From Candidatus Eiseniibacteriota bacterium (GTDB taxonomy: Bacteria > JAFGKV01), in the NCBI GenBank assembly GCA_025453925.1, contig JALOPK010000043.1, forward strand, positions 1-14,723: a DNA stretch of 14,723 bases. The letters run 5' to 3'. Position 1 is the first letter of the stretch. Each line of letters begins with the position of its first letter. The notes beneath the pieces were generated by a model. It saw nothing but the letters and a program-made list of their open reading frames with translations. It was not told where the DNA came from and made no database searches. Shown here one piece after another: positions 1,132 through 14,723 of this stretch. The translations under genes and the position numbers were made by a program.

Positions 1132-1896
1132 ATGACACGGTACCCCTTCTCGTCTGATTATGCCCGTTCTTCCCTGCTGGCAGCCGTCGCCGCTCTCCTG
1201 GCGGTCTGGTCCTGCGCCCATGCGCCTCACTTCGTTCCAGGGCCTTGGGTCTCACCGTCCCCCGACAGCCTCACCGCCATCGACACCCTCGCCGTTTCAG
1301 GACGGGTCATGGTGACGGACGGCTCCGTGAGGCATCGGGCACGCTGGGCGATGGCGGGCTGCGCGGATGCCCTGCGGCTGCAGGTGTTCACCACCGATGG
1401 GAGCTGCATCGCCGACATCGGGTACCGGGGAGACAGTCTCATCGTACTGCTGCCCGGGGCCGTGGAGTGTCACCGCGGGCCTGCTGACAGGATCCCCGTT
1501 GATTCGCTCCTCGGCATCCCTGTGCCGTGGGCACCTGCGTTGTCTGTGTTGCATGCTGCCCTGTGGCCCCAACGGCTGTCACCCCCCTGGACGCCGGGAA
1601 CGCTGGGCCGTCGGCGAGGGTGGTATTCGGAGACGGACGGCATCTTCATCGAACCGGATTCGAAGACCCGTCTGCCTCGGTTCATGGCCTGTTCCCGGGA
1701 GGGATCAGGGCTCACCGCGGAAGTGCGGGCGTGGGAGAGTGATTCCCTCCGGGCGTTTCCCTCCGAGCTGCGGTTGTCGTGGCCCGCCCGAGGGATGGAA
1801 ATGTGGATCAACCTCTCGGTCCGCAGGACGGAAGGAGTGGGCAGTGCGGCGCTTCGCGTGGCGTGTCCAAGCGGTGCTCCGGTCGTGGACTGGTAG
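1132..1896 (+). CDS. Putative LolB-like outer-membrane lipoprotein
   Basis: A 254-residue exported protein. The frame stays open upstream to 835, but ATG 1132 directly precedes a signal-like segment (Arg3, then LLAAVAALLAVWSC), so I chose it. Cys28 is a probable lipidation site, although Trp at -2 is unusual in a lipobox. The body resembles the LolB/LolA-like fold: a SGRVMVTDG strand near residue 55, an HRARWAM strand, QVFTTDGSCIADIGYRGDSLIVLLPG, and a late FPSELRLSWPARGMEMWINLSV stretch, where LolB relatives carry a strand on the inherited lipoprotein-binding scaffold. This fold call is inference from pattern, not a recognised family match. Its last 53 nt overlap the start of the next gene, so the two are almost certainly co-transcribed. 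It could serve lipoprotein trafficking or act as an assembly partner of the adjacent barrel protein. No strong Shine-Dalgarno is visible before ATG 1132. Confidence 0.75.
   Translation: MTRYPFSSDYARSSLLAAVAALLAVWSCAHAPHFVPGPWVSPSPDSLTAIDTLAVSGRVMVTDGSVRHRARWAMAGCADALRLQVFTTDGSCIADIGYRGDSLIVLLPGAVECHRGPADRIPVDSLLGIPVPWAPALSVLHAALWPQRLSPPWTPGTLGRRRGWYSETDGIFIEPDSKTRLPRFMACSREGSGLTAEVRAWESDSLRAFPSELRLSWPARGMEMWINLSVRRTEGVGSAALRVACPSGAPVVDW
1831..1837 (+). promoter_or_regulatory. Ribosome binding site deciding the start of the protease-barrel gene
   Basis: GAAGGAG lies six bases (TGGGCA) before GTG 1844, inside the 3' end of the lipoprotein gene. It is the only strong Shine-Dalgarno near a start codon that leads directly into a signal peptide. 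It therefore fixes a 53-nt gene overlap and rules out the much longer upstream open frame. Confidence 0.8.
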
Positions 1897-4624
1897 CGCG
1901 CTGGGCATCCTCGTCCTCTGCGGCGCCGCATCCGCGGAGTACGGGTTCGGGAAGAACAAGATTACGTACGGCGCGCGCGACTGGTATGCGATCGACGTGG
2001 GCAGTTGCAGGCTTTACTTCCCGGAAGGGTTCGAGAAGGTCGGGCAGATGGCCGCCAGGGAGGTTGAGCAGTCGGCTGCTCTGATTGAAGACATCCTCGG
2101 CATTCAGAGCGATCACGAGATTCCCATCGTCGTCTACGGATCTCACATGGCGTTCCTGGAAACGCGGATTCTGCCTCAGATCCTCCCGGAGGGCGTCGGA
2201 GGGTTCACCGAGTTCATCCAGGGCCGCGTCGTCGTGCCGAACACCGGTGCGTACGGGGAACTGCGGCACGTCCTCGTGCACGAACTCACGCACGCCCTGA
2301 TGCTCGACAAGCTTGCCCGAGTCTCCCGGATCAACCGCCGGATGCGGCTTCCTTCGGTGCCCCTCTGGTTCACCGAGGGTCTGGCGGAGTACACCAGCAC
2401 CACCTGGACCGCCCAGGAGGAAATGGTCATGGGAGATGCGTTCATCGACGGCTATCTCCCCGATCTGGCGAACCTCTGGAAGCTGAACGGCAGCTACCTC
2501 CTCTATTGCGCCGGGCATTCGGTGCTGCTCTTCATGAGCGAGACCTATGGACCGGGCGTGATCCGATGCATCATTGACGAGCTTGGAGATTCCGCCTCAT
2601 TCGAGGAGGCCCTGGAGCGTGCAGTCGGGATTGACCAGCGGGCCGTTGGCGATGCATGGAAGCACTGGCTGGGTGGGCGGTTCGCCTATGCATACGGCCT
2701 AGACGAGGCTTCCGTCCGATTCGCCAGGGCTCTCCCGACGCATCAGGCGTTCCTGAGTCCGTCGCCGTGGGGCGACTCCGCCGACACACTGGTGAGCCTC
2801 TCATATGGCGACGGCTACAGCTCGGTGTATTCCGCCTGCGCTGATCCTTCTCTGTGCCGCCCGAAGCGCATCGTACAGGCGGGAGGCCGGGAGGGTGCGG
2901 AGTCCCTTCATCTCTTCCGCTCCCGACTTGGCGTCAGTCCATCGGGGATCGTCGCGTTCGTTGCGAAATCCGGCGACCGTGACGCCCTGTGCCTTGCTGA
3001 TGGGCGGAGCGGGCGGGTGCTCAGACGCTGGCGGTCATCGGGACTTCTGACCATGGCGAGCCCCTCATTCGCGCCGTGCGAATCGCTGCTGGCGTTCTCG
3101 GCCATGGACACCAGCGGCGTCGTGGATCTGTACGTGCTGGACTTGAGGAGCGACTCCCTGTGCCGGCTTACCGCGGATGTCTTCGACGACGGGTCCCCCG
3201 TGTTCAGTCCAGATGGCACTTCCCTGGTGTTCCACTCAGACCGGTCACCGTGTGGACCGCAGCGGTGCTCCAACCTCTACCTCCTTGATCTCCCCAGCGG
3301 TCAAATCACTCAGCTCACCTGCGGACCGTTCCGTGACCGCGATCCGGCGTGGTCTCCCACCGGAGAGGGGATTACCTTCGTTTCGGATCGGGGGCAGGGC
3401 ATCGGTCTGTGGGAAGTCTCCGGCACCAAGCTCAGGCCACTCGTTCTGGTCAAGGGCGGCGCATTCGATCCATCCTGGAGCAGGGACGGGGAGCGCCTCT
3501 ACTTCGCGACCTACCGCCACGGCACACACGAAGTCTTCGTGGCGGAGCGGTCGGCGATCTCGGGGGCCTGGGAAGAGACCGATCCCCGTGCCTGCGGGGG
3601 ATTCTGGCAGGAGCCGGACTTTCAGACACTTCCCCGGATCCGCCGCTACACCCCACGGTTCAACCTCGATGTGGCGGGGGGCATACTGACCTATGATCCG
3701 ACACTGACCGGTGGCGGAGGCGCCAACATCGTGCTCAGTGATGTCCTGGGAGAGAAGCGTATTTACGCCCACGTGAGCAATGGAGCCGAGACGGCCGGGG
3801 ACTTCCTCTCCAGCTTCAATCTCGCGGTCGCCTATGCGAATCTGAGACCGCGTCTGGCGCATTCGCTGGGGGTGTTCAGACTGGCCGTGAGCGATCGGAC
3901 ATCCTTGGAGGACATTGGCGCCGACGAGCGGCACAATGGTGCGGCCCTGTTCTTGAGCTACCCATTCAGCCGATACCACCGCATCGACGCCGGAACGAGT
4001 GTGCGGATGGTGGAGGAGTTGATCGGAGGCAGTCAGCGAACGGAGCTGTACACGGAAATCGGTTACGCGCGCGACACGGCAGTCTGGGGATACGAGGGTC
4101 CCTGGGACGGGAGCAGGGTCAGCGTCAAGCTGGAGAGCGCCCTCGATGCCGGATCCGGGGCGTTCGTCCGTCGCGACCTGTTCGCCGACGCCCGCTACTA
4201 CGTGAGACTGTCCCGCACGTGCACCCTTGCCAACAGGATTCAGTGGTGGCAGAGTGGTGGGGCTGATCCCCGGCGCTTCGGCCTCGGCGGGACCTTCAGC
4301 CTCCGGGGCTGGGACGGTTACCGCATGCTGGGTCGCACGCGTCTCCTCGGGAACATCGAGTTGCGGTTTCCCGTTCTTCTCGGCATCCAGTTGTTCACTC
4401 CCGCGGGCGAGATGGGATTAGGCCCTTTGCGCGGCGCGCTATTCTTCGATGTCGGCAGGGCGTGGGATGGTCAGTTCCCCGGGCTGGTCGGCAGTGTGGG
4501 TGGGGGACTCCGTCTCACGCTGGGCGGGTTTCTCGTGATACGGTTCGATATCGCTGCCCGAACCGACTTTTCCTCCGCCCCCGGGAAACCAGGGACGCAG
4601 TTCTTCTTTGGCTGGAGCTACTGA
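1844..4624 (+). CDS. Peptidase_MA-like metalloprotease / PD40 propeller / Omp85-type barrel fusion protein
   Basis: A 926-residue outer-membrane protein. Residues 1-31 are a signal peptide (Arg2, Arg3, hydrophobic core, ASA then cleavage before Glu32). Residues about 32-260 are a gluzincin-type peptidase domain: HELTH at 146-150 with Glu147 as catalytic base, and WFTEGLAEY at 175-183 offering the third zinc ligand (Glu178 by family pattern), as in Peptidase_MA-like proteins. Residues about 350-590 carry TolB/PD40 propeller blades, seen as FSPDGTSLVFHSDR (454), WSPTGEGITFVSDRG (503) and WSRDGERLYFATYR (545). From about 602 to the end is an Omp85/BamA-like barrel with the LRGWDG motif at 820-825 and a terminal FFFGWSY ending in an aromatic residue. 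No POTRA domains are visible between propeller and barrel. The protein probably sits in the outer membrane with protease and propeller in the periplasm or outside; substrate unknown. It overlaps the upstream lipoprotein gene and is followed closely by recG. Confidence 0.9.
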   Translation: MRRFAWRVQAVLRSWTGSALGILVLCGAASAEYGFGKNKITYGARDWYAIDVGSCRLYFPEGFEKVGQMAAREVEQSAALIEDILGIQSDHEIPIVVYGSHMAFLETRILPQILPEGVGGFTEFIQGRVVVPNTGAYGELRHVLVHELTHALMLDKLARVSRINRRMRLPSVPLWFTEGLAEYTSTTWTAQEEMVMGDAFIDGYLPDLANLWKLNGSYLLYCAGHSVLLFMSETYGPGVIRCIIDELGDSASFEEALERAVGIDQRAVGDAWKHWLGGRFAYAYGLDEASVRFARALPTHQAFLSPSPWGDSADTLVSLSYGDGYSSVYSACADPSLCRPKRIVQAGGREGAESLHLFRSRLGVSPSGIVAFVAKSGDRDALCLADGRSGRVLRRWRSSGLLTMASPSFAPCESLLAFSAMDTSGVVDLYVLDLRSDSLCRLTADVFDDGSPVFSPDGTSLVFHSDRSPCGPQRCSNLYLLDLPSGQITQLTCGPFRDRDPAWSPTGEGITFVSDRGQGIGLWEVSGTKLRPLVLVKGGAFDPSWSRDGERLYFATYRHGTHEVFVAERSAISGAWEETDPRACGGFWQEPDFQTLPRIRRYTPRFNLDVAGGILTYDPTLTGGGGANIVLSDVLGEKRIYAHVSNGAETAGDFLSSFNLAVAYANLRPRLAHSLGVFRLAVSDRTSLEDIGADERHNGAALFLSYPFSRYHRIDAGTSVRMVEELIGGSQRTELYTEIGYARDTAVWGYEGPWDGSRVSVKLESALDAGSGAFVRRDLFADARYYVRLSRTCTLANRIQWWQSGGADPRRFGLGGTFSLRGWDGYRMLGRTRLLGNIELRFPVLLGIQLFTPAGEMGLGPLRGALFFDVGRAWDGQFPGLVGSVGGGLRLTLGGFLVIRFDIAARTDFSSAPGKPGTQFFFGWSY

Positions 4625-4637
4625 GGGCCCCGCGGCC

Positions 4638-6659
4638 GTGGGCGTTCTCGATCACCCGATCGGGGTGATCCGAGGCGTCGGCCCCGCCACCGCAAACCAC
4701 CTCCGCACCCTGGCCGTGCACACGGTTCGTGATCTGGTGTCCTTCCTTCCGCTCCGGTACCTGGACCGTTCACGCATCATGCCCATCGCCTCGGTGCATT
4801 GCGGCCAGGATTGCCTCCTCTGCGGGATCCTTGGGGCCGCCGCCCCGCTGTTCACCCGCGGGGGGAGACGGGGCGTTTCGGCGCTCCTCGCCGACGAGTC
4901 GGGGTCCATTCGATGCATGTGGTTCGGTTCGGCTTCCTGGGTCGGGCGCTGGTCAGGCCGAGAGGTGGTTGTCTCGGGCCGTACGTCCCTGCGCAACCCG
5001 CCTGCGCTTCTCCACCCGGAAATTGAGGATCTCACCGACGAACGCGACCCCTATCTCCCCGTCTATCGGCTCACGGCGGGTTTGACCCAACGGAAAATGC
5101 GGGCAGTCGTGCGAGCCGCCCTCGCCTCGCTGCCCCTGGCGGTGCCAAGTCTGGTGGATTCTGCGTGGGCCTCGGCCTGCAGCCTTGCGGCGCTGGGGGA
5201 GGCGGTGCGGTGCGCTCACTTCCCGCCGTCGCTTGAGCAGGGCCTCCGCGGGCAGGATCGCGTGCGCCTGGAGGCGCTCATCCCTCTTCAAGTCCTGGTG
5301 GCCCGCCGCAGGGCGTCTTTCCGAGATCGCTCGGCGCCGGCCATGGCGGCGACCGCGGACGAACTGGCCAGGTTTCTACGTCTGCTTCCTTTCCCGCTCA
5401 CCCGATGTCAGGCCGACGCCCTTGGTGAAATCCGCGGCGATCTCGCCAATCCACGGCCAATGCACCGTCTCCTCCAAGGCGATGTCGGGTCGGGCAAGAC
5501 CGTGGTGGCGGCCGGGGCCGCCGTCATTGCTCTGGCACACGGTTTTCAGGTGGCCCTGATGGCCCCGACCGAAGTGCTGGCCGACCAGCACGCACGGGTG
5601 CTCACCCCGTGGATACGGGAGATCGGGCACGAGACCGTCGTCCTTTCCGGAGGGACCTCCGCAGGGGACCGCGGCACCATTCATCGCAGGATGGCGGAGG
5701 GCCAGCCATTGCTTGTCATCGGCACGCATGCGTTGGTGCAAGACTCCGTCGCGTTCGGGAACTTGGGGCTTGCGATCATTGACGAACAGCACCGTTTCGG
5801 ACTCGGCCAACGAGCGGCGCTCGCGGCAAAGGGAAGCTCGCCCCATCTCCTGGTCATGACCGCGACTCCCATTCCCCGAACGCTGGCAATGACGGTGTAT
5901 GGGCATCTTGACCTGTCCGTACTGAGCGAGAAACCGCCGGGACGAAGGCCCATTCAGACCAAGTGGTATGACCATGGGCGGCGGGGCCACGCGTTCGACG
6001 ATCTCCGTCGGGCCGTGGCGGGGGGCATCCAGGCGTATGTGGTGGCGCCCCTGGTTGAGGGATCTCCGTCCCTGGAGGCCAGCGGCGCCGTGGATCTCTA
6101 TCATGACCTGTCGACCGGCGAGCTGGCCGGCGTGCGGGTAGGGCTCGTGCATGGGAGAATGAAGGCCGCGGAGAAGGACCGCGTGATCCACGCGTTCCGT
6201 GCCGGGGAGATTCAGGTGCTGGTCTGCACGACGGTCGTTGAGGTGGGCATGGACGCGCCGGGAGCAGGTCTGCTCCTGGTGGATGGGGCCGAACGGTTCG
6301 GCCTCTCGCAGCTGCACCAGCTGCGAGGCCGGATCGGTCGTGGCGGGCAGGACGCCTTCTGCATCCTGCTCACCGGCGAAATCATCACCATCGAGGCAGA
6401 ACAGCGTATCCAGGCGATGCTTGATACCGGTGACGGATTTCGCCTGGCGGAGATCGACCTGACGCAGCGCGGGCCCGGCGCGCTGCTGGGCCCGGACCAA
6501 CATGGCAGAGTCGCCGGAGTTCTCTCCGCGGACGTCCGGTTGGTTGCCCTTGCCCGCGAGTGTGCCCAGCGCATCGTGGAGGGGGGCCCCCCCCCCGGCA
6601 TCGACCTTGATGGACTGGTCAGGGGTTTTGAGGACGTCCCTGCCCTGGGGGCCGGCTGA
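4638..6659 (+). CDS. recG: ATP-dependent DNA helicase RecG
   Basis: RecG remodels stalled replication forks and branched DNA. The protein is 673 residues, close to the usual size of about 690. Order: N-terminal HPIGVIRGVGPA helix-hairpin-like segment, an OB-fold wedge at about 60-150 (LLADESGSIRCMWFGS), then the superfamily 2 helicase core. Visible motifs are Walker A GDVGSGKT (281-288), MAPTEVLADQH, DEQHRFG (DEQH at 382-385), MTATPIPRTLAMT, TTVVEVGMDAP, QLRGRIGRG (561-569), and the RecG-specific TQRGPGALLGPDQHG. The start is uncertain: GTG 4638 has GAGGG ten bases upstream and gives a typical RecG N-terminus, while TTG 4608 is in frame and would overlap the previous gene by 17 nt. The 3' end holds a G6C10 tract and overlaps the convergent glycosyltransferase gene by 41 bp. 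The family call is secure. Confidence 0.97.
   Translation: MGVLDHPIGVIRGVGPATANHLRTLAVHTVRDLVSFLPLRYLDRSRIMPIASVHCGQDCLLCGILGAAAPLFTRGGRRGVSALLADESGSIRCMWFGSASWVGRWSGREVVVSGRTSLRNPPALLHPEIEDLTDERDPYLPVYRLTAGLTQRKMRAVVRAALASLPLAVPSLVDSAWASACSLAALGEAVRCAHFPPSLEQGLRGQDRVRLEALIPLQVLVARRRASFRDRSAPAMAATADELARFLRLLPFPLTRCQADALGEIRGDLANPRPMHRLLQGDVGSGKTVVAAGAAVIALAHGFQVALMAPTEVLADQHARVLTPWIREIGHETVVLSGGTSAGDRGTIHRRMAEGQPLLVIGTHALVQDSVAFGNLGLAIIDEQHRFGLGQRAALAAKGSSPHLLVMTATPIPRTLAMTVYGHLDLSVLSEKPPGRRPIQTKWYDHGRRGHAFDDLRRAVAGGIQAYVVAPLVEGSPSLEASGAVDLYHDLSTGELAGVRVGLVHGRMKAAEKDRVIHAFRAGEIQVLVCTTVVEVGMDAPGAGLLLVDGAERFGLSQLHQLRGRIGRGGQDAFCILLTGEIITIEAEQRIQAMLDTGDGFRLAEIDLTQRGPGALLGPDQHGRVAGVLSADVRLVALARECAQRIVEGGPPPGIDLDGLVRGFEDVPALGAG
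6581..6596. repeat. Homopolymer run G6C10 inside recG
   Basis: Six G followed directly by ten C, read in frame as Gly-Gly-Pro-Pro-Pro-Gly about 20 codons before the recG stop. The run is long enough to slip in replication or to be misread in sequencing. An indel would replace only the last residues of RecG. Confidence 0.9.
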
Positions 6660-8628
6660 GGCCTCTGCCCCGCTTGGGCTGGCCGCCTCGCTGGAGGCCC
6701 ATGGGTGCGACCCTGGTTGCCTCGCGCCTGAACAGCCGCTCCTTTTCCTTGCGCTCCGCCTCTGCCGGGAAGTACGCCACCTGCTGCCGGGAGAAGACCG
6801 CGACATAGTCGAACGCCACAGCCTTCATCCGCCACGGGGTACCGTCAGGCGCGGTCGATGGCCGGTGGGTCGCGAAGTGAAAATCGATGCGCCCGCGTTG
6901 CCCTGGAAGGAACTCGGGCGGCTCGAACACCGCCAGGTAGTGTCTCCAGCCACCAGCCATCTCGATCTGGGCTTTCCGCCGTTTGTTCAGATCGATGGTG
7001 ACCTTCTGAGGCAGCGTGAACGATGCGGCCCGGAACACCACTGCCGAGGCAGGCCGGTTGTTCTCCAGCGGGAAGTTCAGTTTGGCGTGGGCGGCGAGGG
7101 CCCAGGAGAATGTGAAGGGCTGTCGCGGGTTGTCGGATTCCTCCGACCGGGAGTCGATGTTGTCGACGTAGTAGGGAAGAGCTTCCGGGGTTCCGATGTC
7201 CAGGCCTCCGGTCTTGACAAGACGGGAAAGGCGAATCTGTGGGGCGGCGCTGCCGGGGGCGTGCGAGCCCTCGCATAGCCACAGGGTGGAGACCTTCTCC
7301 ATATTGGGGCCTGCATCGTAACGCGAAAGCCAGTTCTCGCCACGGACCAGGTGCGCCCAAGGTTTCTTGGTCGCTGCCCAGGCCATGAAGACCTTGGCGT
7401 CTTCAGGGGAGACGAGGACGATGTCGCTGTCACGGATCTTTCCGTCCAGGTGGGCTGCGGCCTCCTCCCAGATGGCCGCCTGGATCCGCGCCGACCCTGC
7501 CGGCGGCCTCCAGCCGATCCCGGCGAGGACTGCGCCGAAGGCCAGCGTGAGGGCGAATTCCGGCACGCGCGGCGCGCTCGCTGAGTGGGGAATCAGCCGT
7601 GCGATGCCAAGTCCCGCCAGCAGGAGAAACACCGTCAGCAGCGCGGCCGCGCCGCCTGCGGAGACGGTGGTCACGGTAGTGCGGTGAAAGGCGAACAGAC
7701 CGGGCACGAAGAGAAGAGACAGCACGATCAGGAAGAAGGACGGCAAGAGGCATTTCGTGCTGAGTAGCACCCGCCCGCTGCTCAGGGAGACGCGCTCGGT
7801 TCGAAGCCCGAGGATCGCGCCAACGACCGCCGCCGCGCCCAGCGGGACGAAACCGATGATGCTGCCGGAGCCGTGATTCCGGAGAACGGTATCATAGAAC
7901 CCGGCAGCCGTGACGGGAACGGGGGAAATCGGCATCCGCGCATGGCGGCCCAGCAGGACCAGCCATGGAAGGTAGCACAGGCCGGCCAGGCCCATGGCGA
8001 CCAGGGCCTCCCCCACGGGTGGGCGGCCGGGTTCCCGCGCCCTGCGGAGCTTTCCCTGCCAGAGCAGCACGGCGCCGAAGGCACACCAGAGCAGGAGGTA
8101 CATGAACACCCCGTAGGCGTGCCAGTAGAGCATGAAGACCAACGCTCCAAGGAGAATTGCCCAGGGCAGTTTCCCCTGACGTTTCCACCCCGAGAGGAAT
8201 GCGTCGACGGCAAGGATCGTCGCGAGGAGAAAGCCGCTGTCCGGGCCGAAAGTGCGGGCGATTCCGGACGCTGCCGGTGAGCAGGCATAGAGGGTCGCCG
8301 CGCTCATTCCTGCCGCTCGGGAGAAGTGCCGGGTGCCTACTCGCGTGATCAAGACGATGATGGCCAGCCCACACATGATGGAGGGGAGTCGGAGCAGCCA
8401 AGGCTCTCTCGTGACCCGTGCCCATAGTCCTGCGGAGAGCCAGAAAGGAGAGGGATGGGGCATCACGGACCCGGTCTTGAGCGACGCGGCCAGCTCGCCA
8501 CTCCCCAGGAGGCCGCCCGACAGCGACATGATCTCCCCGTCCGACAGACGATTGGCGCCGGGAACCAGGACAATGAGGACCAGGTGGATCGCCAACAGGA
8601 CTGCCGTGAACACGTGGAATCGTGTCAT
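6619..8628 (-). CDS. GT-C / PMT-type (ArnT-like) membrane glycosyltransferase
   Basis: A 669-residue integral membrane protein. Members of this superfamily move sugars from polyprenyl-phosphate donors to acceptors on the periplasmic side. Start ATG 8628 is fixed by CCGGAGG five bases upstream; the frame extends to 8745 but without a site as good. About ten to twelve hydrophobic segments lie between residues 3 and 373. The first outer loop holds SDGE (29-32), the usual place for the catalytic Asp/Glu of GT-C enzymes, followed by RLPSIMCGLAIIVLITRVG and AGMSAATLYACSPAASGIAR, typical of PMT_2-like proteins. Residues about 375-620 are soluble; the part near 525-612 (LPQKVTIDLNKRRK, PGQRGRIDFHF) reads as a beta-sandwich, possibly carbohydrate-binding. 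The tail from 625 is Lys/Arg-rich and low-complexity. Donor and acceptor are unknown. The gene stands alone between recG and the divergent heat-shock operon. Confidence 0.85.
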   Translation of the reverse strand: MTRFHVFTAVLLAIHLVLIVLVPGANRLSDGEIMSLSGGLLGSGELAASLKTGSVMPHPSPFWLSAGLWARVTREPWLLRLPSIMCGLAIIVLITRVGTRHFSRAAGMSAATLYACSPAASGIARTFGPDSGFLLATILAVDAFLSGWKRQGKLPWAILLGALVFMLYWHAYGVFMYLLLWCAFGAVLLWQGKLRRAREPGRPPVGEALVAMGLAGLCYLPWLVLLGRHARMPISPVPVTAAGFYDTVLRNHGSGSIIGFVPLGAAAVVGAILGLRTERVSLSSGRVLLSTKCLLPSFFLIVLSLLFVPGLFAFHRTTVTTVSAGGAAALLTVFLLLAGLGIARLIPHSASAPRVPEFALTLAFGAVLAGIGWRPPAGSARIQAAIWEEAAAHLDGKIRDSDIVLVSPEDAKVFMAWAATKKPWAHLVRGENWLSRYDAGPNMEKVSTLWLCEGSHAPGSAAPQIRLSRLVKTGGLDIGTPEALPYYVDNIDSRSEESDNPRQPFTFSWALAAHAKLNFPLENNRPASAVVFRAASFTLPQKVTIDLNKRRKAQIEMAGGWRHYLAVFEPPEFLPGQRGRIDFHFATHRPSTAPDGTPWRMKAVAFDYVAVFSRQQVAYFPAEAERKEKERLFRREATRVAPMGLQRGGQPKRGRGLSRPPGQGRPQNP

Positions 8629-8633
8629 CCCAA

Positions 8634-8640
8634 CCTCCGG
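8634..8640 (-). promoter_or_regulatory. Ribosome binding site of the glycosyltransferase gene
   Basis: On the minus strand CCGGAGG is followed by TTGGG and then ATG 8628, a five-base spacing from GGAGG. It sets the start 39 codons inside the longest open frame. Confidence 0.8.
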
Positions 8641-8808
8641 GGCTTCGGACGTGTACCAAGACCGCGGTTCGAGATCGCCGCGTCCCGACGCGCAATGTGC
8701 ATTCTGGGTGAGAAACTTGTCGGCAGTCGGCCGTCGCGGCATCACGGTCTTCTCGCCGGACGGCGGATTCCGATCGGCGCCTTGCCGCAGCGGATGGCTG
8801 CACAGCCT

Positions 8809-9060: not shown

Positions 9061-9186
9061 GAGGTCCGCGTCGCGGGTTGCCGTCACCCCGCCCATGGGG
9101 CTGATGCCTGGACGGTGGCGGGCCACACGTGATTGATGGACGGCGTCCCACCACGTGGCAGGATCCACCCTTGTGAGGTCCGACGG

Positions 9187-9216
9187 TTGACCTGCAGGTA
9201 TGAAGGATGCTATATT
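9187..9216 (+). promoter_or_regulatory. Sigma-70-type extended -10 promoter of the hrcA operon
   Basis: TTGACC (9187-9192, five of six consensus bases), an 18-base spacer, then TATATT (9211-9216, five of six) preceded directly by TGC, an extended -10 element. The predicted transcription start is near 9223, giving a leader of about 36 nt before hrcA ATG 9259. This is the clearest promoter in the window and stands out against the GC-rich background. Confidence 0.8.
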
Positions 9217-9218
9217 GA

Positions 9219-9232
9219 TATGATGCATCATA
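9219..9232. promoter_or_regulatory. Candidate operator: perfect 14-bp palindrome over the transcription start
   Basis: TATGATGCATCATA is perfectly self-complementary and begins two bases after the -10 box, so it covers the predicted +1 of the hrcA operon. Outer TTG (9215-9217) and CAA (9235-9237) extend it imperfectly. It does not match the canonical CIRCE (TTAGCACTC-N9-GAGTGCTAA). The position suits a repressor, either HrcA with a divergent site or another heat-shock regulator; this is inference. Confidence 0.55.
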
Positions 9233-9258
9233 CGCAAAGAGAGGTAACTCCGTCAGCT

Positions 9259-10302
9259 ATGGCAACTCACCGAATCGACCCCCGCCACGAAGCGGTCCTT
9301 GAAGTCGTGGTTGAGCACCACGTGATGACCGCGCAGCCCGTCAGCTCGGCAACGGTTGCGCGGCGGTCATCCTTGCGGCTTAGCCCCGCGACGCTGCGCA
9401 ACATAATGGCGGAGCTGGAGGAGCAGGGCTTCCTTCAACAGCCGCACACGTCGGGCGGCAGGATCCCCACCGATCGGGGCTACCGGCTGTACGTGGACGA
9501 TCTCATGCGCGTCAGAGGGCTCACTACCGGGGAGAAACGCCTCATCCTGACCGAGATCCGCAATGCCTGCCGCGACGTCGAGGATGTCCTCAGGGCAGCC
9601 TGTAATGTTCTCTCGAGAATCTGGGGGCAACTGGCGTTGGCGCTGGGGCCTTCGGCCACTGAAGGGGTTCTCCGGAGGATCGACCTCATCCCCGTGTCAT
9701 CAGAACGGGTTCTGGTGGTGCTCTCGGTGGCATCTGGAGTCATCAAGACAGTCTTGGTGGAGGCCGTCCAGTCGGTGGATCCCGGCAAGCTGGAAGCCGT
9801 CGCGCGGCTCCTCAACGAGCGTCTCTCCGGTGTTCCCCTTTCCGAGGCGCTCTCCATCATCAGTTCGGAGCCGCACGCCTTCAGCAGTGGTGATGCCGCG
9901 GTCCGGCAGGTACTGGTGCGGCTGGCCGACCGAGGCTCAGTGTCCAAGCTGGGAGGTGACCTGTTTCTCGATGGAACGACCCGTCTTCTGTCCCAGCCTG
10001 AGTTCGAGTCAAGGGGCATGGTGGGTAGGTTTCTTCAGATCGTCGAGGCCCGGGAACCGATCGTCCGGGAGCTGGCCCTTCTCCGCCATCAGACGATGCC
10101 GATGGTGGTCATCGGCAGAGAGAACGCGGTGAACGAGCTTCAGGAGTGCAGCATGGTTGCCGCCGGGTACCGCGTTGGCAAGGCATCCGGAGCCGTCGGC
10201 ATCTTGGGGCCGATTCGGATGCCCTACTCGACCCTTCTCCCCGCCGTTCAGTTCGTGGCTTGCGCCGTCAGCGACCTTTTCTCACAGCAGGGGCGAGCAT
10301 GA
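9259..10302 (+). CDS. hrcA: Heat-inducible transcription repressor HrcA
   Basis: HrcA represses class I heat-shock operons and normally depends on GroEL for activity. The protein is 347 residues, standard for the family. The N-terminal winged helix is clear: RHEAVLEVVVEHHVMTAQPVSS (9-30), LSPATLRNIMAELEEQGFL (41-59) and HTSGGRIPTDRGYRLYVD (63-80), where most relatives have SAGR. The rest matches the dimerisation and inserted domains, ending in a GPIRMPYSTLLPAVQFV region typical of HrcA. ATG 9259 was chosen because the predicted transcript starts near 9223, inside any longer frame. AAAGAGAGG at 9236-9244 is the likely ribosome site, though its 14-base spacing is long. It is the first gene of the hrcA-grpE-dnaK-dnaJ operon, so autoregulation is expected. 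No canonical CIRCE is visible upstream. Confidence 0.96.
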   Translation: MATHRIDPRHEAVLEVVVEHHVMTAQPVSSATVARRSSLRLSPATLRNIMAELEEQGFLQQPHTSGGRIPTDRGYRLYVDDLMRVRGLTTGEKRLILTEIRNACRDVEDVLRAACNVLSRIWGQLALALGPSATEGVLRRIDLIPVSSERVLVVLSVASGVIKTVLVEAVQSVDPGKLEAVARLLNERLSGVPLSEALSIISSEPHAFSSGDAAVRQVLVRLADRGSVSKLGGDLFLDGTTRLLSQPEFESRGMVGRFLQIVEAREPIVRELALLRHQTMPMVVIGRENAVNELQECSMVAAGYRVGKASGAVGILGPIRMPYSTLLPAVQFVACAVSDLFSQQGRA

Positions 10303-10358
10303 CGAACCCCACCTCCCATGGTGCACCCTCACCGCGTGAACTGTTCTGGCGATGGTGA
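10299..10358 (+). CDS. Possible 19-residue coupling ORF between hrcA and grpE
   Basis: ATG 10299 overlaps the hrcA stop as ATGA and is preceded by AGGGG with five-base spacing, a good ribosome site. The frame encodes MTNPTSHGAPSPRELFWRW and stops at TGA 10356-10358, whose last base starts the grpE ATG (TGATG). A ribosome could therefore pass from hrcA through this short frame into grpE, which has no good ribosome site of its own at that ATG. Whether the peptide matters is unknown; the geometry could be chance, and a later grpE start (GTG 10406) would weaken the case. Confidence 0.4.
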   Translation: MTNPTSHGAPSPRELFWRW

Positions 10359-10972
10359 TGCATACTGAGGATACGCCTGTGGCCGGTCCCGAGGAGATGA
10401 CCACGGTGACCGCGGACTTCAAGCCGAGGACTGGGAAGCGGGGCAGACTCAAGGCCTTGTCTGCGGAGGTCGAGCGTCTGAGGGAAGAGGAGGAGGCGTG
10501 GCGGCGCGCCAGGGAAGAGTTCATGGAGCGGATCGCGGGGCTGGAGGACGAGAAGCTTCGGCTCCTCGCTGAGATGGACAATGTGCGCAAGCGCGCGCAG
10601 CGGCGTTTGGAAGAGGATCGCTGGGCGCTCACCGCCGAGGTCTCACGGCCTTTGCTCGATGTGGCGGACAACTTGGAACGTGCCATTTCCGCAGGTGCAG
10701 AGGGTGGCGTCCAGGCTGCCACGCTGGACGGTATCCGCATGGTTCACACGCAGCTCATGGACGTGCTCGGCCGCTACGGGGTGGAGCCCATCCAGGCGGT
10801 GGGGCTACCGTTCGACTTCAACGTACATGAGGCGATCGCCCATGCGCCCTCCAGCTCCGCGCGTGACAATGAGGTCGCCATCGAGGTGGCCAGGGGCTAT
10901 CTCCTGAAAGGGAAACTCCTTCGTCCGAGCAAGGTCATCGTCGCGCGCGCGGGCCGCGAGAGCGAGTCCTGA
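10358..10972 (+). CDS. grpE: Nucleotide exchange factor GrpE
   Basis: GrpE releases ADP from DnaK and acts as a thermosensor in the Hsp70 cycle. With ATG 10358 the protein is 204 residues, usual for the family. About residues 31-95 form a charged coiled coil (AEVERLREEEEAWRR through EMDNVRKRAQRR), followed by the four-helix dimer region (LLDVADNLERAI). The C-terminal beta domain carries the GrpE signature FDFNVHEAIAHAP and VARGYLLKGKLLRPSKVIVA (152-197). Start choice is uncertain: ATG 10352 is also in frame, ATG 10358 overlaps the stop of the preceding 19-codon ORF, and GTG 10406 has GAGGAG nine bases upstream and would remove 16 disordered residues. It lies between hrcA and dnaK in the standard order. 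Confidence 0.95.
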   Translation: MHTEDTPVAGPEEMTTVTADFKPRTGKRGRLKALSAEVERLREEEEAWRRAREEFMERIAGLEDEKLRLLAEMDNVRKRAQRRLEEDRWALTAEVSRPLLDVADNLERAISAGAEGGVQAATLDGIRMVHTQLMDVLGRYGVEPIQAVGLPFDFNVHEAIAHAPSSSARDNEVAIEVARGYLLKGKLLRPSKVIVARAGRESES

Positions 10973-11006
10973 ATGCGTCCCGTGTGGTGGCTCCGGGCAC
11001 TCTCGG

Positions 11007-11028
11007 TCAGGTCCGTTTCCGGGCCTGA
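11007..11028 (+). other. Intercistronic hairpin between grpE and dnaK
   Basis: TCAGGTCCG, loop TTTC, CGGGCCTGA forms a nine-pair stem with one G-U pair. It ends four bases before the dnaK ribosome site (AAGGGGG, 11032-11038). No T-run follows, so it is not a standard terminator. It may protect or process the mRNA so that dnaK is expressed above grpE; that role is inference. Confidence 0.55.
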
Positions 11029-11048
11029 GACAAGGGGGTTAGCGATTC

Positions 11049-12917
11049 ATGGGTAGGGTGGTAGGGATCGATCTCGGCACTACCAACAGCTGCGTGGCGT
11101 TCGCCGAAGGCGGAAACGCGGTGATCGTCCCCAGTGCCGAAGGCGGCAGGGTGACGCCGTCCATCGTCGGCTTCACGCCCGACGGCGAGTTGCTGGTGGG
11201 CGAAGTCGCCAAGCGGCAGATGGTCACCAATCCCCTGACCACGGTCAGCAGTATCAAGCGTTTCATGGGGAGGCGTTTCGCCGAGATCACCCGGGAATCG
11301 GAGATGGTGCCGTACCGGGTGGTCGAAGGCAAGAATGGGGACGTGCGGGTCGTGCTGGGGCAGAGGGACCTGAGCCCCCCTCAGATCAGCGCCATGATAC
11401 TGCAAGCGCTCAAGCGGCGGTCGGAGGAGTTCCTCGGCGAGGCGGTCGATCGCGCCGTGATCACCGTGCCGGCCTATTTCAATGATGCACAACGCCAGGC
11501 GACCAAGGACGCCGGGCGTATCGCGGGCCTCGATGTGCTTCGAATCATCAATGAGCCGACCGCGGCGGCGCTGGCATACGGGCTCGAGAGAAAGCGTGAC
11601 CAGCGGATCGCGGTATTCGATCTTGGCGGGGGAACGTTTGATATTTCCATTCTGGAGATGGGGGACGGCTTCTTCGAGGTGAAGGCGACAAACGGGGATA
11701 CGCACCTTGGGGGCGATGATCTCGACCGGCGGCTGGTGGACTGGCTTGCCAAGGAGTTCGAGAAGGAACACGGGATGGATCTCCGCAAGGATCCGACCGC
11801 GTTGCAGCGCCTTCGTGAAGCCGCTGAACGGGCCAAGTGTGAGCTCTCCAACGTGCTGCAGACGACCATCAACCTACCCTTCATCGCGGCGGATCAGGAT
11901 GGGCCGAAGCATCTGCTCTCCATCATGACCCGGACGCTGTTCGAACGTTTGGTCGCCGATCTCGTGGACAGTACGGAAGATCCGTGCCGCCAGGCATTGG
12001 AGGATGCGGGGCTCGCCGCCGAGCAGATCGAGGTGGTCTTGCTGGTGGGGGGCTCGACCCGGATGCCCGCAGTGCGGGAGAAGGCCAGAGCGATCTTCGG
12101 CAGAGAGCCGTTCCAGGGAGTGAATCCAGATGAGGTCGTGGCGGTGGGTGCGGCGATTCAGGCCGGCGTGCTGGACGGGCAGGTGAAGGACGTGTTGCTT
12201 CTCGACGTGACGCCGCTCTCGTTGGGAATAGAGACCGCAGGAGCTGTGTTCACCCGGCTCATCGAACGGAACACGACCATCCCGACCAGGAGAAGCCAGA
12301 TTTTCTCCACGGTTGTCGACAATCAGCCGGCTGTCAGCGTGCATGTCTTGCAGGGCGAACGGCCGATGGCGCAGGACAATCGGACTCTGGCGCGCTTTGA
12401 ACTCGTCGGCATTCCTCCTTCGCCGCGGGGAGTACCCCGCGTCGAGGTCATGTTTGACATAGATGCCAACGGAATCGTGAGTGTCTCGGCCAAGGACCTC
12501 TCGACGCAGAAGGAACAGAAGATCCGGGTTCACTCCTCCAGCGGTTTGACCGAGGAAGAGATCCAGCGGATGATCAGGGATGCCGAGCAGTTCAGGGACG
12601 AGGACACACGGAAGTCCGTCCGTGCGCAATTGAGGAACCAGGCCGACGCGCTCCTGTACGACACCGAGATCGGATTGTCGGAGCACGGCGCGCAGCTCCA
12701 GGATGCGGATCGCCAGCGCCTGCTCGATGCAGTCAGCAGCCTGAGAGGCCATCTTGCGGCGGGGGACGAGGAGAACGTGCGCCTCTCCATGCGGGAGATA
12801 AGTCAGGCCAAGGTTCCACTGGACGAGATCGTGTTTGCCGGCGAGCCCTCGGACGCATCTGCCGACCGGCCTGAGCACCAGGAGGAGCCTGCTCCTGATT
12901 CCTGGTCGTGGCGTTGA
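11049..12917 (+). CDS. dnaK: Molecular chaperone DnaK (Hsp70)
   Basis: DnaK is the ATP-driven chaperone that binds exposed hydrophobic segments and works with DnaJ and GrpE. The protein is 622 residues, slightly short for the family. The nucleotide-binding domain shows GIDLGTTNS (6-14), [13 protein letters not shown] (166-178), [13 protein letters not shown] (188-200, with Thr196 in the position of the autophosphorylated Thr) and [12 protein letters not shown] (331-342). The interdomain linker is DVLLLDVTP (381-389). The substrate domain follows with [31 protein letters not shown] and [15 protein letters not shown], then the helical lid. The last 20 or so residues (ending [11 protein letters not shown]) differ from the acidic DAEFEEV-type tail common in bacterial DnaK. 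ATG 11049 has AAGGGGG ten bases upstream. It lies between grpE and dnaJ as expected. Confidence 0.98.
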
Positions 12918-12965
12918 CTCCGCGGGGACTTCTCGGCCCTCCCCGAAGTTGAACGTGGAGGATAG

Positions 12966-14111
12966 GTGGCCAGCAAACGAGACTACTACGAGGTCTTGGG
13001 GGTCGAAAGGGGTGCCTCCGATGACGAGATCAAGAAGGCGTACCGTAAGCTCGCCTTGAAACATCACCCGGATAGGAACCCCGGGAACAAGGATGCCGAG
13101 GAGAAGTTCAAGGAGGTCGTCGAGGCCTACGAAGTACTTAAGGATTCGGACAAGCGCGCGCGATACGACCGGTTCGGCCATGAGGGCGTTCGCGGAAGCA
13201 CTGCGGGGTCCGGGGGATTCGGCGGATTTGACCTCTCCGACGCCCTGCGCTCGTTTCTGAGGGATTTCGGGGGCGGATTCGGCTTCGGCGATCTGTTCGG
13301 CGAGGAGGAGCGGGAGGCCCCGGGCCCGAGGCGCGGAAAGGACCTCCAGATCCGGCTGCCCCTCACCCTCCAGGAGATCGCGACCGGCGTGGAGAAGACC
13401 CTTCGGATCGCGCGGGAGGAGGTGTGTGAAGCGTGTCAGGGCTCCGGCGCGAGCCCCGGCACGAGCCAGACACCCTGCGGGACGTGCAAGGGGAGCGGCC
13501 GGGTGAAGCGGGTCGCGTCATCGCTGTTCGGGCAGATGGTGCGCGTCGAGCCGTGTCCTGTGTGCCACGGCGAGGGGAGCGTGATCGCGCACCCGTGCGC
13601 GACATGCGGTGGTGCCGGTACGCAGGAAGGCAAGTCGACCGTGTCGGTGAGGATCCCCGCCGGCGTCGCCATGGGCAACTACCTCACGCTCCGGGGTCAG
13701 GGGCATGCCGGAGCCAAGGGGGGAGGCCGCGGTGATGCGTATGTGCTGGTCGTGGAGAAGGAGGATCCACTGTTCGAGCGTCAGGGCGATGACGTGTTGT
13801 GCCGGCTGGCCGTGAGCTTCGCTACCGCGGTTCTGGGTGGAGAAGTCGAGGTGCCCACTCTCACCGGACGGGTGAAGGTGCGAATTCCAGCGGGCACCCC
13901 GTCAGGGAAGGTGTTCCGGATGAAGGGGAAGGGTCTCCCCCATCTCAACGGCTCGCGACGGGGCGATCTGCACGTGCAGATAGTGGTCTGGGTTCCCGAG
14001 CGGTTGAACCGCGACCAGACGGCCCGACTGTCGGAGTTGTCAAAGTCAGGCGGTCTGGAGCCGCCAACCGAACTCATGGCTCGGCGGCAGGTGTCCCGAG
14101 ACGAACTGTGA
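12966..14111 (+). CDS. dnaJ: Co-chaperone DnaJ (Hsp40, type I)
   Basis: DnaJ delivers substrates to DnaK and stimulates its ATPase. The 381-residue protein has the full type I layout: J domain (about 5-70) with HPD at 34-36, Gly/Phe-rich linker (about 76-112), then four CxxCxGxG-type zinc repeats (CEACQGSG at 154, CGTCKGSG at 171, CPVCHGEG at 197, CATCGGAG at 211). The two C-terminal beta domains include [18 protein letters not shown] and [18 protein letters not shown]. The start is GTG 12966 with GGAGG four bases upstream; no in-frame ATG fits better. The gap from dnaK is 48 bp. The stop overlaps the rsmE start as GTGA. All functional residues I can check are present. Confidence 0.98.
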
Positions 14112-14723
14112 CCGCGCATGTCCCCGGGATCGTGCTCCCGGACCAAGTGACATGCGGAGAGGAGGTGGTGCCATCCAGGGCTGAGGCCCATCGCTTGAGA
14201 CGAGTGTTGAGACTTCCCGAGGGATCCACGGTCCGTGGCCTCACTCCGGACGGCTCGACCCTTCTACTGCAGATCACCTATCGCCCCGGTGGCGAAGTCA
14301 GGCTCCTGGTGGTGGGTGAGGCGCAGCGGTCGTCATGCGACAGCACGGGAACAACCGTCGCCGTCGCTCTCATCAAGCGGATGGCGCACCTTGATTTCGT
14401 AATCGAGAAGGGAACGGAGATCGGCGTTGCGGCGTGGTGGGCCGTGGTGACTGAACACTGTGCCGACGCAGGGCTGGTGCGTTCGTATGAACACCGGCTC
14501 CAACGGTGGCGGCGGATCGCGGAGTCAGCCTCCATTCAGTCTGGCCGATCCTCGGTGCCCCCGGTGATCGGCGTGCTGTCGCTGCCCGAGTTGTTTGAGG
14601 CGTCACTGGGATGCGGCCGGCGTCTGGTCGCTGTCCCCGGCGCTGCGGAGTCGATGCGGACTGTCGCGCGCGAACGAAGCGCCTCAACGTTGTTTCTTGT
14701 CGGGCCCGAGGGCGGATGGAGTT
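14108..14723 (+). CDS. rsmE: 16S rRNA (uracil(1498)-N(3))-methyltransferase RsmE, partial (right edge)
   Basis: RsmE methylates N3 of U1498 in 16S rRNA using S-adenosylmethionine and belongs to the SPOUT knot family. The window holds 205 codons of an expected 240 or so; the C-terminal end of the knot is cut off. An N-terminal PUA-like segment contains [15 protein letters not shown] (26-40), followed by the SPOUT part: [20 protein letters not shown] (88-107), [15 protein letters not shown] (133-147), and the S-adenosylmethionine-binding loop start LVGPEGGWS (197-205). After the KGTEIGV motif this copy reads TEHC where relatives commonly have SERS. GTG 14108 overlaps the dnaJ stop by four bases (GTGA), indicating translational coupling. 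The prmA gene that often lies between dnaJ and rsmE in Firmicutes is absent here. Confidence 0.93.

Follow-up and report, generated by a model that had tools for sequence, protein, structure and literature searches.

A protease–propeller–Omp85 fusion protein of FCB-type bacteria is probably an uncharacterised outer-membrane assembly and quality-control factor

The window, that is, the whole stretch of DNA analysed, is the 14,723-nucleotide (nt) contig JALOPK010000043.1 of a Candidatus Eiseniibacteriota bacterium (assembly GCA_025453925.1). Its plus strand encodes at 1844-4624 a single-chain protein in which a signal peptide is followed, according to the structural model, by a domain with gluzincin fold, a propeller of the TolB type, and an Omp85 barrel of 16 strands. 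An earlier note, made from the sequence alone, had proposed a HELTH metalloprotease, a TolB-like propeller, and an Omp85-type barrel for this gene. Its features are listed below; conservation is counted throughout in an alignment of 85 homologues, with identity down to 23-30%.

1844-4624 (+): protease–propeller–barrel gene, 926 amino acids, GTG start (Pfam, model, Shine-Dalgarno sequence)
1844-1936 (+): signal peptide, residues 1-31, predicted cleavage after A29-S30-A31, an A-x-A site (sequence; relatives with the same layout)
1946-1969 (+): FGKNKITY, residues 35-42, at the mature N terminus; lowest mean entropy of the segments measured (0.37 bits)
1985-2698 (+): gluzincin-type metalloprotease domain, residues 48-285 (Pfam, model, fold match, profile match)
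2189-2239 (+): conserved EGVGGFTEFIQGRVVVP segment, residues 116-132, 5' of the helix that bears the active site; may form the edge strand that binds substrate
2279-2293 (+): HELTH, motif of zinc site and catalysis, residues 146-150; H146, E147, and H150 in 85/85
2375-2377 (+): Glu178, positioned as the third zinc ligand, 28 residues past H150; 85/85
2504-2506 (+): Tyr221, candidate transition-state tyrosine, 43 residues past Glu178; 85/85
2708-3562 (+): TolB-type beta-propeller, residues 289-573 (approximately), roughly 24 strands (PDB fold match, model)
3662-4621 (+): Omp85 beta-barrel, residues 607-926, 16 strands within 607-924 (model, PDB fold match)
4301-4312 (+): LRGW, L6 motif of the (V/L)RG(F/Y) type, residues 820-823; R821 in 83/85, G822 in 84/85

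The Shine-Dalgarno sequence AAGGAG lies at 1832-1837, 6 nt 5' of the GTG start. In the product, Pfam recognises PD40 (5.6e-18, three stretches), Peptidase_MA_2 (3.5e-11), and Omp85 (2.3e-9), each above the curated cut-off. A frameshift, a pseudogene, or a chance fusion as the origin of the 926-residue open reading frame is ruled out by the layout common to full-length relatives; chance fusion in particular is excluded because distant genomes hold such homologues.

The AlphaFold2 model of the whole chain, computed with the 85-sequence alignment, reaches a mean predicted local distance difference test score (pLDDT) of 89.3 and a predicted template modelling score (pTM) of 0.89. Since this pTM extends over 926 residues, the domains are predicted to pack in a defined way rather than to form a loose string. 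In a comparison of the model with PDB folds, residues 312-573 superimpose on E. coli TolB with a Z score of 27.6 (root-mean-square deviation 2.3, 241 residues), whereas the TIGR02800 TolB equivalog is not reached (90.2 bits against a cut-off of 343.15). The propeller fold is thus that of TolB, here fused between protease and barrel. The three PD40 blades recognised in the earlier note are borne out by the Pfam stretches, which cover just three blades of a propeller that is larger than proposed and forms a whole TolB-type domain.

Residues 607-926 match BamA and Sam50 with Z scores of 22-24. The barrel shares with these proteins the 16 strands, the RG motif of L6, a Glu and an Asp in the barrel wall (E839, kept in 85/85, and D869, in 84/85), and the C-terminal aromatic residue, which is Tyr926 here and aromatic in 82 of the 85 homologues. 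LRGWDG (residues 820-825), the terminal aromatic, and the signal peptide had been read correctly from the sequence, and the strand number is the one expected in the earlier note; the barrel itself begins at 607 and not at about 602. In contrast to BamA and Sam50, protease and propeller occupy the position of the POTRA domains, as previously suggested: no POTRA family matches the product in the Pfam scan, the families listed for 50 relatives include none either, and the model leaves no room for one between propeller and barrel.

Modelled alone, the protease domain attains a pLDDT of 90.2. A fold search retrieves M9 collagenase peptidase domains (Z 18.2), then M30 lugdulysin (16.6) and M1 aminopeptidases, and collagenases also rank first by sequence profile (E 1.7e-4), in line with the gluzincin fold that had been expected. 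M48 peptidases are not among the fold matches listed, which are non-exhaustive and do not prove absence; the M48 family PF01435 has no match in the product at E values up to 1. HELTH and WFTEGLAEY (175-183) lie where the earlier note had placed them, and the spacing of 28 residues between His and Glu equals that between His527 and Glu555 in collagenase G (ColG; PMC9304777). Moreover, Tyr564 of the G. hollisae collagenase is situated 44 residues past its Glu ligand (PMC9304777). While the fold is shared, M9 collagenases differ in their partner domains and location and are only about 13-15% identical.

With H146, E147, H150, E178, and Y221 present in every homologue, the HExxH, Glu, and Tyr set is complete in a predicted gluzincin fold, and the protease is apparently active; the option of an inert HELTH domain, previously offered, is disfavoured. 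The invariance of these residues is no selection effect, because the scan that yielded most of the homologues was seeded with other peptides (FGKNK and EGVGGFTE). The conservation of the seed peptides themselves is partly biased by the seeding, and relatives found without it carry both. In the EGVGGFTEFxKGRVV segment, G120 and R128 are invariant and E123 occurs in 83/85, with model strands at 121-123 and 128-132; this segment probably supplies the edge strand next to the active site. FGKNKxxY, in turn, is scored with low confidence in both models, of the whole chain and of the protease domain alone. Its high conservation despite this low confidence suggests that it binds a partner, perhaps in the way of the N-terminal peptide of TolB.

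The fusion is no one-off and is shared by hundreds of bacteria, most of them little studied. A peptide-seeded scan of a species-level genome collection returned at least 524 matching stretches encoding relatives, and full-length relatives span many FCB-type phyla. The best 80 of these stretches come from Zixibacteria, Gemmatimonadota, Eisenbacteria, Latescibacteria, Krumholzibacteria, Ignavibacteria, Calditrichota, KSB1, Marinimicrobia, Cloacimonadota, Hydrothermota, Coatesbacteria, one Bacteroidota metagenome-assembled genome, and others. A tree of the homologues resolves two broad clades, with Zixibacteria and Fermentibacterota represented in both. The genome of the window itself encodes a second copy on another contig (L107:5046-7754, minus strand); it has the same three-domain layout, lost its N terminus at the contig end, and scores just under the cut-off for Peptidase_MA_2. 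A further contig of this genome carries a TamB-like gene (L108:2-3418, minus strand) beside an Omp85 gene, a candidate TAM pair.

The genes flanking every homologue were collected. Across lineages, the family gene is often accompanied by genes of outer-membrane biogenesis. A BamB-like PQQ propeller lipoprotein (Pfam 1.5e-33) is the next gene mostly in Zixibacteria, with few loci in KSB1, Eisenbacteria, and Marinimicrobia, and in 16 of 22 such loci its frame, if taken from the earliest start codon available, runs into the end of the family gene by up to 13 nt. Gemmatimonadota show the order HEAT-cyclophilin protein (a peptidyl-prolyl isomerase, PPIase; 1.5e-38), family gene, lipoprotein, and LptE (2e-6). 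TamB (9e-33) lies directly upstream, overlapping or abutting, in three related Eisenbacteria-like loci (L085, L087, L088), while MlaE (4e-72) followed by an MlaF-type ATPase is found directly downstream in L090, L103, and L106 (Calditrichota, LCP-89-like).

To control for this, a Pfam scan compared 105 genes adjacent to the family gene on its strand with 105 genes of the same loci that lie four or more positions away. PQQ_2/BamB occurs in 21/105 adjacent genes and in at most 1/105 distant ones (Fisher p 2e-6, a value assuming independent loci, which these are not). Further, the adjacent set contains nine PPIase, three MlaE, and three TamB genes, with none in the families listed for the distant set. 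The independent evidence is the recurrence, in separate branches, of differing partners of one process. The gene neighbours point to outer-membrane assembly rather than to the passage of substrates through the barrel, which the earlier note had considered. Two other upstream neighbours were observed: SprT-like, DUF2786, and DUF7168 genes in Latescibacteria-type genomes and one Gemmatimonadota genome (L055:6857-7927, L056:5783-6847, L067:1848-3428), and a MurA-like gene of the EPSP_synthase family in one Zixibacteria subclade (L089, L098, L082, L104, L078), in each case directly 5' of the family gene.

Part of this architecture is known. In their 2014 classification, Heinz and Lithgow define a WD40-Omp85 subfamily that likewise combines an N-terminal TolB-like propeller with an Omp85 barrel and lacks POTRA domains, which are usual but not required for Omp85 membership (PMC4104836). 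The text of the paper names no peptidase domain in this subfamily and describes neither the gluzincin domain ahead of the propeller, with its invariant active site, nor the gene context reported here. No paper combining PF13485 or Peptidase MA with Omp85 was recognised in searches of an open-access library. The barrel–propeller half is already described; for the protease half and the gene context, no earlier account came to light. A 'metallo' subfamily of the same classification also places a metal-dependent enzyme N-terminal to an Omp85 barrel; that enzyme is PF00149, termed metalloprotease by the authors (PMC4104836), in contrast to the HExxH peptidase of the present protein. The Pfam name of PF00149 is Metallophos, a phosphoesterase family, and the label 'metalloprotease-Omp85' seems to be a mistake that later papers repeated. 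Both the metalloprotease and the WD40 classes were still given as uncharacterised in 2024 (PMC11116518). PlpD, a patatin-Omp85 protein, resembles our protein in having an enzyme domain N-terminal to an Omp85 barrel, but this domain is a patatin lipase, combined with POTRA and with no propeller; the present protein has no patatin match in Pfam. The N-terminal enzyme domain of PlpD was shown to be periplasmic (PMC11116518).

Together, we conclude that the family is probably an uncharacterised outer-membrane assembly and quality-control factor. With middling confidence, we favour a periplasm-facing assembly factor of the BAM/TAM type that carries its own protease for quality control or maturation. 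Its working mode would be analogous to that of BamA plus BepA, homology to BepA being limited to both being HExxH proteases. BepA, of the M48 family, is likewise a periplasmic protease acting on outer-membrane protein assembly with an edge strand by its active site; through this strand it aids LptD assembly at BamA or degrades stalled LptD (PMC8423444). Unlike the present protein, BepA stands alone without fusion to a barrel, has a TPR domain, and belongs to a different peptidase family.

After Sec export and removal of the signal peptide, the predicted 16-strand barrel would insert into the outer membrane. Protease and propeller would remain periplasmic in the position of the POTRA domains, as the topology of Omp85 proteins and PlpD suggests, and the propeller may dock partners or incoming substrates in the manner of BamB and TolB. 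The barrel seam could then aid the insertion of some outer-membrane proteins or of components of lipid pathways, for example LptD-type barrels, while the gluzincin domain might grip nascent chains via the conserved edge strand and, similar to BepA, cleave stalled or misassembled ones or trim them. More tentatively, we propose a single-chain machine, widespread in FCB-type phyla, in which the barrel may act as insertase, the propeller as scaffold, and the protease in the role of BepA, with FGKNKxxY docking a partner.

Several observations speak against such an assembly factor. The protease falls outside the BepA (M48) family, and LptD was not detected in the genome of the window with PF04453, although LptE was, at a genome completeness of 82%. 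Further, the neighbour types vary by lineage, with one inherited arrangement within each according to the tree, so the comparison of 105 with 105 genes overstates independence; 40 of the 85 loci are without any labelled neighbour, some owing to contig ends.

The TamB and MlaE–MlaF neighbours described above would suit a TamA-like partner of TamB- or Mla-type lipid transport, whose barrel receives phospholipid or glycolipid bridges and whose protease and propeller regulate docking. Such neighbours are, however, confined to one of the two clades; the clade of the window shows lipoprotein, BamB-like, and LptE neighbours instead, and lipid transfer requires no protease. We regard this role as doubtful, albeit with some share of probability. 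A protease that matures exported proteins, cutting off propeptides or processing proteins of the surface or the secretome while these insert or pass the barrel, is slightly less probable again. It accords with the invariant active-site set, with M9 and M30 endopeptidases as nearest folds, and with the constant fusion to a translocase-type barrel, but no gene for a dedicated secreted substrate is found repeatedly next to the family gene, and BamA-type Omp85 barrels, unlike TpsB, are not usually secretion pores.

That the barrel exports the N-terminal domains to digest environmental protein at the surface is improbable. Such display would be in keeping with the M9 collagenase-like fold and with the autotransporter-like layout formerly proposed for PlpD, whose enzyme domain nevertheless turned out to be periplasmic (PMC11116518); moreover, the gene neighbours are periplasmic assembly factors, and the model packs all domains in a defined way (pTM 0.89). 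We give least credence, and very little, to a non-catalytic scaffold in which the HExxH domain merely holds substrates: the edge strand of BepA does promote LptD assembly besides proteolysis (PMC8423444), yet all five catalytic residues are invariant in the 85 sequences, down to the most distant.

Outer-membrane assembly is known mainly from Proteobacteria and, lately, from Bacteroidota. As an assembly and quality-control factor conserved in hundreds of genomes, the protease–propeller–Omp85 fusion would show a BamA-type barrel carrying its own quality control, and would allow the uncharacterised WD40-Omp85 class to be tested on a concrete example. The fusion also brings a mislabelling to light, in that the 2014 'metalloprotease-Omp85' class is built on a phosphoesterase family, while the present fusion has a real peptidase domain.

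Within the window, the family gene is flanked on the same strand by two genes:

1132-1896 (+): putative lipoprotein gene, overlapping the start of the family gene by 53 nt (sequence; gene order)
4608-6659 (+): recG, directly 3' of the family gene (Pfam; gene order)

The order lipoprotein, family gene, recG is kept in three Fermentibacterota genomes, that of the window included; recG is probably only co-transcribed. The putative lipoprotein has no Pfam family. Its homology to the Gemmatimonadota lipoprotein was rejected by profile comparison (probability 0.5%, E 0.12). A LolB or DUF4292 identity for either of the two was likewise rejected, for want of a Pfam match and with BB1 (E 0.016) as the sole match among PDB profiles.

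On the minus strand, an open-ended frame at 1-1230 codes for a probable exported protein that matches neither Pfam nor NCBIfam, and 6619-8745, between recG and hrcA, encodes a PMT_2-type glycosyltransferase with an unmatched C-terminal half. The contig continues at 9133-14722 with hrcA, grpE, dnaK, dnaJ, and the start of an RsmE-like gene. In several Zixibacteria loci, Hsp20, DnaK, and DnaJ are likewise encoded three to five genes from the family gene.

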